A stretch of 64,000 nt of DNA, taken from contig NZ_JAPZSK010000004.1 in the NCBI RefSeq assembly GCF_027531815.1, positions 310,001 to 374,000 on the forward strand. The letters are read 5' to 3'. This DNA comes from Gemmatimonas sp. (GTDB lineage: Bacteria; Gemmatimonadota; Gemmatimonadetes; Gemmatimonadales; Gemmatimonadaceae). A program made the translations under genes and the position numbers. This document shows positions 24,168 to 25,942 of this stretch, one piece after another; within the stretch, counting starts at the first letter, position 1; each line of letters begins with the position of its first letter. Under the pieces are notes generated by a model that worked only from the letters and a program-made list of their open reading frames with translations, was not told where the DNA came from and did not search any database.

Positions 24168-24878
24168 CTACCCCTGTCGACCGCAAGTCACGCAGTAGCG
24201 CCAGTGCACCGCCAGTTCCGTGCTGCACGCCGCACAGTGACGCTTGGTCAGGTCCATGCCACAGTACGGACAATAGGTCACGGGGCGCCCCTGGGGCAGC
24301 CTGTTGTCGCAGAAGCGACAGCACGGAGGGACGGCGTGCGCGGCACGCTCCGGCGTCCGGTCGCCTACGGTTGCCGCGAGGTGCCCGCGGCCGACAACAG
24401 CCGCGCCATCTCGGGGTGCTGGAAACAGCTCGTGCTCCGGGTCGTAGGCGGGCTGTGTCGGTACCGCTCCGGAGCTGCTGCGTCGGCCAACGGGGGGCTC
24501 GGTGCAGACGCCAGGGCCGCTGTCGGTCGCTGCGCGCGCCGACTGCTTGAGCTGCAGCGTACTCGTGGCCCAGGCCCGTACCATGGACAGGGTGGGCGAC
24601 GGAAACGTCAGCGCCAACCGGCAGGCGCTCTGTAGCGCCGGCTCCGCCATCACGTAACCGCGATCGCCGGCAACCAGACGCAGCAGCGCCGCTTCAAAGG
24701 CGTCGGTACCAGCGTCGGCCATTTCGCGGCGGACCTCGCGGAACGGCAGCAGCCGTTCCTCGAGATCACCCAGCGTGAACCCGAGCGCGAGCAGCTGCGG
24801 ATACTGGGTGCGGATGGTGCGGGACAGACGGAATGCCAGACGATCCAGATCGTCGAGCGAGCGGGCCACGACACTCAC
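24168..24878 (-). CDS. Double zinc-ribbon protein of unknown function (236 aa)
   Basis: The C-terminal 50 residues hold four CxxC knuckles: CRFC, CPYCG, CAAC and CVTCG, which form two zinc ribbons. The N-terminal about 100 residues are helical, and a low-complexity Ser/Ala/Pro linker joins the two parts. Such ribbons often mediate protein or nucleic-acid contacts. The GTG start at 24878 overlaps the upstream 59-aa gene by 4 nt (GTGA). Its partner is unknown; co-expression with the small membrane protein hints at an envelope-associated role. Confidence 0.72.
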   Translation of the reverse strand: MSVVARSLDDLDRLAFRLSRTIRTQYPQLLALGFTLGDLEERLLPFREVRREMADAGTDAFEAALLRLVAGDRGYVMAEPALQSACRLALTFPSPTLSMVRAWATSTLQLKQSARAATDSGPGVCTEPPVGRRSSSGAVPTQPAYDPEHELFPAPRDGAAVVGRGHLAATVGDRTPERAAHAVPPCCRFCDNRLPQGRPVTYCPYCGMDLTKRHCAACSTELAVHWRYCVTCGRQG

Positions 24879-25103: not shown

Positions 25104-25730
25104 CTATGGACGCACCGCGGAACGCGCTGGTAACGGCGGCGCTGGAACGAACCGTTCCGCCACCGGAAATGGCGACAACGCCTGTGCCCGCACCTTGGGC
25201 CCCTGCGCCTGCAGCCAGGCGTTGAACTGCGACGCCACGAGCCCGTCGGAGGCATCCTGCGCCGCTGCTGCCCGCGTCGCCAGATGGTTGGCGTATTCGT
25301 TCTGCGGATGCCCGGCATGTCCCTTCACCCAGCACCATTGCGTCTCGTGGAGGGCGATGGCGTCGACGGCCTCCTGCCACAACTCCACGTTCTCCACCGC
25401 GCCATCCTTGCGCTTCCAGCCGCGCGCCATCCAGCCGCGTACCCAACTGGTCATGCCATCCACGATGTAGCGGGAATCGGTCGTGAACTGCACGGAGAGG
25501 CGGTTCCCTTTCCTCGACATCGCGGCATAGCTGTCGATCACCGACCGCAGCGCCATGCGGTTGTTGGTGGTCGTGGGCTCCGACGCCCACAGGTCAAAGC
25601 GGGACACGGTGCCGTCGGCCTTGCGAAACTCCACGAGGGCGCCAAGACCGCCGGGGGTGGCACCGCTCTGGCCGTTTCCCAGGCATGATTCGTCGGCGTA
25701 GACCGCCACCAGCGGATAGCGCGCCGTCAT
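25104..25730 (-). CDS. RNase HI-fold protein with two catalytic acids replaced (208 aa)
   Basis: It aligns over its whole first 150 residues with E. coli RNase HI, for example YADESCLGN, TTNNRM, TTDSRY, NVELWQ and WCWVKGHAGHPQNE. Two metal ligands are kept: Asp13 (D10 in E. coli) and Asp85 (D70). The E48 equivalent is Ala60 (NNRMALRS) and the D134 equivalent is Asn148 (NEYANHL); the DGS loop is DES with Glu14. His138 is kept. It may have lost cleavage or use Glu14 as a substitute ligand. The C-terminal about 50-residue extension is of unknown role. It overlaps the 71-aa gene by 4 nt. Confidence 0.88.
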   Translation of the reverse strand: MTARYPLVAVYADESCLGNGQSGATPGGLGALVEFRKADGTVSRFDLWASEPTTTNNRMALRSVIDSYAAMSRKGNRLSVQFTTDSRYIVDGMTSWVRGWMARGWKRKDGAVENVELWQEAVDAIALHETQWCWVKGHAGHPQNEYANHLATRAAAAQDASDGLVASQFNAWLQAQGPKVRAQALSPFPVAERFVPAPPLPARSAVRP

Positions 25731-25942
25731 CGCACGGCCTCGAGCGAATCGATCTCGTCCACGATCAGCTCCAACCGATGCCCGGTGCTCGGGTGCCGTG
25801 CCATGATCACTTCGCGGCCACTCTCCACGCGCAGGCGCTCGGGAATCACGACGTACTCCGTCCCGCGCCGCATGATGGTGAGGCGCGACCCATCGATGAT
25901 GGCTCGCTCGAGCAGATCGTATTGTGCGGTAGTCGGTTGCAT
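25727..25942 (-). CDS. Small protein of unknown function (71 aa)
   Basis: It starts at ATG 25942 (MQPTTAQYDLLERAIIDGSR) and ends in a 4-nt overlap with the RNase H-like gene, which strongly suggests coupled translation. The predicted content is one helix followed by about five beta strands (RLTIMRRGTEYVVIPERLRV, then HRLELIVDEIDSLEAV), like a small barrel of the WYL C-terminal or SH3 type, but no family is certain. It could be a nucleic-acid-binding partner of the RNase H-like protein (inference from coupling only). Confidence 0.6.
   Translation of the reverse strand: MQPTTAQYDLLERAIIDGSRLTIMRRGTEYVVIPERLRVESGREVIMARHPSTGHRLELIVDEIDSLEAVR

Follow-up and report, generated by a model that had tools for sequence, protein, structure and literature searches.

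The gene at positions 25104 to 25730 on the minus strand of the window (the whole 64,000-nt stretch of Gemmatimonas DNA that was analysed) in all likelihood encodes the active, metal-dependent, hybrid-cleaving housekeeping RNase H1 of this organism, with its second carboxylate on β-strand 1 instead of helix A. This relocated-glutamate design is a known oddity, published in 2013, and is not new; it proves to be the norm throughout a bacterial class. New here are the class-wide pairing of Glu14 with Ala60, the drifting fourth residue and a conserved, translation-coupled partner. The gene and the codons at issue, the latter assigned by alignment to E. coli RNase HI, are:

25104 to 25730, minus strand: RNase H1 (rnhA-like), 208 aa, with an LC9-type active site (ORF with ATG start, Pfam, alignment, structure match)
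25692 to 25694, minus strand: Asp13 codon (E. coli Asp10), first catalytic carboxylate
25689 to 25691, minus strand: Glu14 codon (E. coli Gly11), relocated glutamate, in the place of the RNase HII Glu (T. maritima E19)
25551 to 25553, minus strand: Ala60 codon (E. coli Glu48), vacated position on helix A
25476 to 25478, minus strand: Asp85 codon (E. coli Asp70), third catalytic carboxylate
25317 to 25319, minus strand: His138 codon (E. coli His124), invariant
25287 to 25289, minus strand: Asn148 codon (E. coli Asp134), with Asn, Asp or His in relatives

The 208-aa protein matches the Pfam family RNase_H (PF00075; E=1.9e-27, 96.6 bits, cut-off 25.8) and that family alone; RNase HII (PF01351) gave no match, and the segment ADESCLGN is without the GRG motif. 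Against the NCBIfam RNase HI equivalog the protein scores 131 bits, under the 160-bit cut-off. Alignment to E. coli RNase HI pairs D10 with D13, G11 with E14, E48 with A60, D70 with D85, H124 with H138 and D134 with N148. The initial annotation had described Ala60 and Asn148 in place of Glu48 and Asp134, an extra glutamate in a DES loop and retained nucleic-acid-contact motifs, and all of this, coordinates included, was confirmed. The protein lacks two of the four DEDD carboxylates, having TNNRMA (A60) instead of the canonical TNNRME and N148 instead of the fourth Asp on the last helix, and the extra Glu directly follows the first Asp. Asp13, Asp85 and His138 are invariant among homologues, as are the substrate-contact motifs GN18-19, TNN55-57, GH137-138 and W96/W100/W105. 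In an AlphaFold model (pLDDT 93; 26 homologues as input) the D13-E14 pair lies on strand E7-16 and A60 on helix H56-72. Sequencing error or chance was ruled out as the source of these residues by a 97%-identical gene in another Gemmatimonas MAG and by the recurrence of Glu14/Ala60 in 170 distinct homologues.

The best solved match by sequence was PDB 4ibn (E=2e-75), followed by E. coli mutants (7e-33). The model likewise had 4ibn as its top fold match (58% identity over 203 residues, Z 30.2, rmsd 2.2 Å), the runner-up reaching Z 19.8, and Foldseek agreed on 4ibn as the nearest structure. The entry is titled 'Crystal structure of LC9-RNase H1, a type 1 RNase H with the type 2 active-site motif'. 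Like 4ibn, the Gemmatimonas protein has the type 1 fold over its full length, Asp-Glu on strand 1 with no helix A Glu, and Asn at position 148. The abstract on LC9-RNase H1 reportedly concludes from mutational analysis that the second Glu has left helix A for strand 1, beside the first Asp, as in RNase H2, and the enzymatic properties are said to resemble those of RNase H1. As cited in PMC4423430, LC9-RNase H1 has an 'atypical DEDN active site motif' (Nguyen et al. 2013, FEBS Lett 587:1418).

Co-variation at the site was followed in homologues from a phylum sample picked by Pfam match, not by motif (about 110 of the 286 matching genomes of this phylum were read), together with 80 genome-collection loci (the best 80 of 345) and ten viral loci. 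This gave 181 distinct complete sequences, with Glu14 accompanied by Ala60 in all 170 of the shifted type and Gly accompanied by Glu in all 11 canonical ones. No mixed Glu14/Glu48 or Gly11/Ala48 intermediates, which the initial annotation held would contradict it, were found among the 181. That annotation had also suggested that Ala60, Asn148 and Glu14 vary together; the Glu14-Ala60 link held throughout, and position 148 did not follow it, carrying Asn in 139 of the 170 shifted sequences (which thus have all three residues), Asp in 29 and His in 2, in otherwise identical sites. The two loci with His at this catalytic position, rather than Asn or Asp, are L206 and L210. In a quick tree, whose alignment retained the trait columns, the Glu-shift group formed one side of a single branch (support 99), with long branches leaving the outgroup join uncertain. 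The Asn and Asp labels at 148 each require 12–13 changes on this tree, of which at least 5 are forced by well-supported branches. Because position 148 drifts among Asn, Asp and His, switching five times or more, these enzymes are not defined by 'DEDN'.

Almost all of the 170 shifted homologues are from Gemmatimonadota, and within the class the type spans eight family-level groups. By title, the best 80 of 345 loci comprise 76 Gemmatimonadota, 3 unplaced and 1 Candidatus Kuenenia, the last probably a mislabelled bin because its sequence is 74% identical to the Gemmatimonas RNase H1. The Glu shift was not found in the ten viral-contig relatives, those scoreable at the site being canonical. Viral contigs L114 and L115 encode an RNase H1 with canonical Gly/Glu, yet with Asn at the fourth position (NERANDLA). 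Phage and plasmid records yielded no match at or above 60% identity, and the active site as read in two of the phage records was canonical in both.

With non-acidic residues at two of the four classical DEDD positions, the protein could be taken for a pseudoenzyme that binds RNA/DNA hybrids without cutting them, for instance as a protective or regulatory R-loop binder. The initial annotation had weighed such a protein against a re-wired metal site, and the former is now highly improbable. Every member has the compensating Glu, always together with Ala60; Asp13, Asp85 and His138 are invariant, the type is conserved across the eight family-level groups, and the closest solved homologue is described as bearing the type 2 active-site motif rather than a dead site. 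The search for other rnhA or rnhB genes that had been proposed was also run. The 208-aa RNase H1 is the one PF00075 protein of the host genome, and no second, canonical RNase H1 was found there by PF00075 search. A single RNase HII, canonical and with a DE-VGRG motif, is encoded by rnhB at G000:C2:355880-356425; RNase HII is also present in 24 of 26 relatives, the two without it being genomes below 90% completeness. Three genomes of one family in the same class (L003-L005) have a canonical RNase H1 only, in the place of the shifted one, which suggests that the two types are interchangeable. Very probably, therefore, the 208-aa protein is no pseudoenzyme, and the perfect pairing of Glu14 with Ala60 and the title of 4ibn favor the re-wired site. 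The canonical enzymes of L003-L005 (DGSS/TNNRME) have CxxC and CxxH-like motifs in an extension at their N terminus.

The predicted fold, the residue at each position, the strict Glu14/Ala60 pairing and the gene complement come directly from this analysis; we infer the activity and metal geometry of the 208-aa enzyme from published homologues. The second catalytic carboxylate would lie on β-strand 1 beside the first Asp (Asp13-Glu14), not on helix A (Glu48 in E. coli, Ala60 in this protein). We expect Glu14 to ligate metal ion B and to contact the 2′-OH of the nucleotide before the cut, like Glu19 of T. maritima RNase HII; Asp13 would bridge both metals, Asp85 would hold metal B, and Asn148 would take a weaker fourth place near metal A that tolerates Asn, Asp or His. 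The T. maritima RNase H2 complex has metal B held by D18, E19 and D107; there, E19 has a position similar to that of B. halodurans E109, and the backbone carbonyl of E19 additionally ligates metal A (PMC3025331). For the E. coli enzyme, RNase HI, carbonyl groups of three residues (Asp10, Gly11 and Asp134) ligate metal A, and carbonyls of Asp10 and Glu48 ligate metal B (PMC8900815). Because Gly11 ligates metal A and Glu48 metal B, a Gly11 to Glu change can keep the contact to metal A and also replace Glu48, and Glu14 may do both in the Gemmatimonas protein. Asn148 counts against the relocated site, being a loss relative to RNase HII, which retains the fourth Asp.

Alternatively, the protein might be a weak, Mn2+-dependent, one-metal RNase H resembling the E. 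coli E48A/D134N mutant, with Glu14 a mere space filler. That double mutant, for which there is a crystal structure with Mn2+ (1wsg), ranks second among the sequence matches; no account of its activity was found in the open-access literature. There is little chance that this is so, as Glu14 is invariant in the 170 sequences and tied to Ala60, and a space filler need not be acidic; moreover, RNase HII uses exactly the position of Glu14 for metal B. An active RNase H1 with its glutamate on strand 1 is thus the preferred reading. An automatic residue check would label such an enzyme dead on its two non-canonical catalytic positions. It offers a clean case of a catalytic carboxylate shifting within a fold to the solution of a sister enzyme class, both positions changing together. 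The wide sample separates the fixed part of the site (Glu14/Ala60) from the drifting part (position 148), and the natural variants are a ready set for probing what the second and fourth carboxylates do.

Immediately upstream of the RNase H1 gene lies the partner gene:

25727 to 25942, minus strand: 71-aa conserved upstream partner, predicted WYL/Sm-like small β-barrel (overlap, homologue loci, model)
25727 to 25730, minus strand: ATGA stop/start overlap from the 71-aa ORF to the RNase H1

The overlap, from which translational coupling was proposed, is conserved in relatives: a homologue of the 71-aa protein occurs in 119 fetched loci, with an overlap of -4 in 87 and of -1 in 7 of them. Across a 121-genome sample the protein was present in all listed genomes of its own family, Gemmatimonadaceae, and in most of the sister family; two f6 genomes were the only carriers among the more distant families. 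It has no match in Pfam or NCBIfam; of 22 members, 5 match WYL weakly (best E 0.0056) and 2 match Phd/YefM antitoxins (best E 0.004). Its model (pLDDT 94) matches the WYL domains of CapW, BrxR, DriD and PafBC, and also Hfq, at Z 9–11, and from these fold matches the protein is probably a stand-alone WYL/Sm-like barrel. Its role is the least explained part of the locus. It could conceivably, though this is rather doubtful, be an accessory subunit, a separate nucleic-acid-binding module that replaces the hybrid-binding domain of other RNases H1 and delivers the enzyme to hybrids or ssDNA. If so, this subunit and the relocated Glu would together make a two-component RNase H1 that has so far been seen in Gemmatimonadota alone. 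Downstream of the RNase H1 gene on the same strand, a 236-aa ORF (24168-24878, minus strand) has several CxxC pairs at its C terminus and is zinc-ribbon-like there.

Compared with known systems, the protein shares with E. coli RNase HI (rnhA) the fold (Z about 19), the substrate-contact motifs and the equivalents of Asp10, Asp70 and His124, but differs in having Ala for Glu48, Glu for Gly11 and Asn for Asp134. The same substitutions of Glu48 and Asp134 were made in the E48A/D134N laboratory mutant (1wsg), which, unlike the Gemmatimonas enzyme, has no compensating Glu at position 11. As in RNase HII/H2 (that of T. maritima and the organism's own rnhB product), an Asp-Glu pair ends strand 1, with the Glu expected on metal B, and in published structures the RNase HII Glu occupies nearly the same spatial point as the helix A Glu (PMC3025331). 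Unlike in RNase HII, no GRG junction-recognition motif follows the pair, and both sequence and fold are type 1. The same arrangement is found in LC9-RNase H1, to which the protein is 58–59% identical over its full length, C-terminal tail included, with the segments ADESCLGN, TNNRMALRS, TTDSRY and NEYANHLA in common. LC9-RNase H1 is metagenome-derived; the Gemmatimonas gene, by contrast, has a place in a genome and in a phylum, is accompanied by a conserved partner gene, and comes with a measured range of residue combinations.
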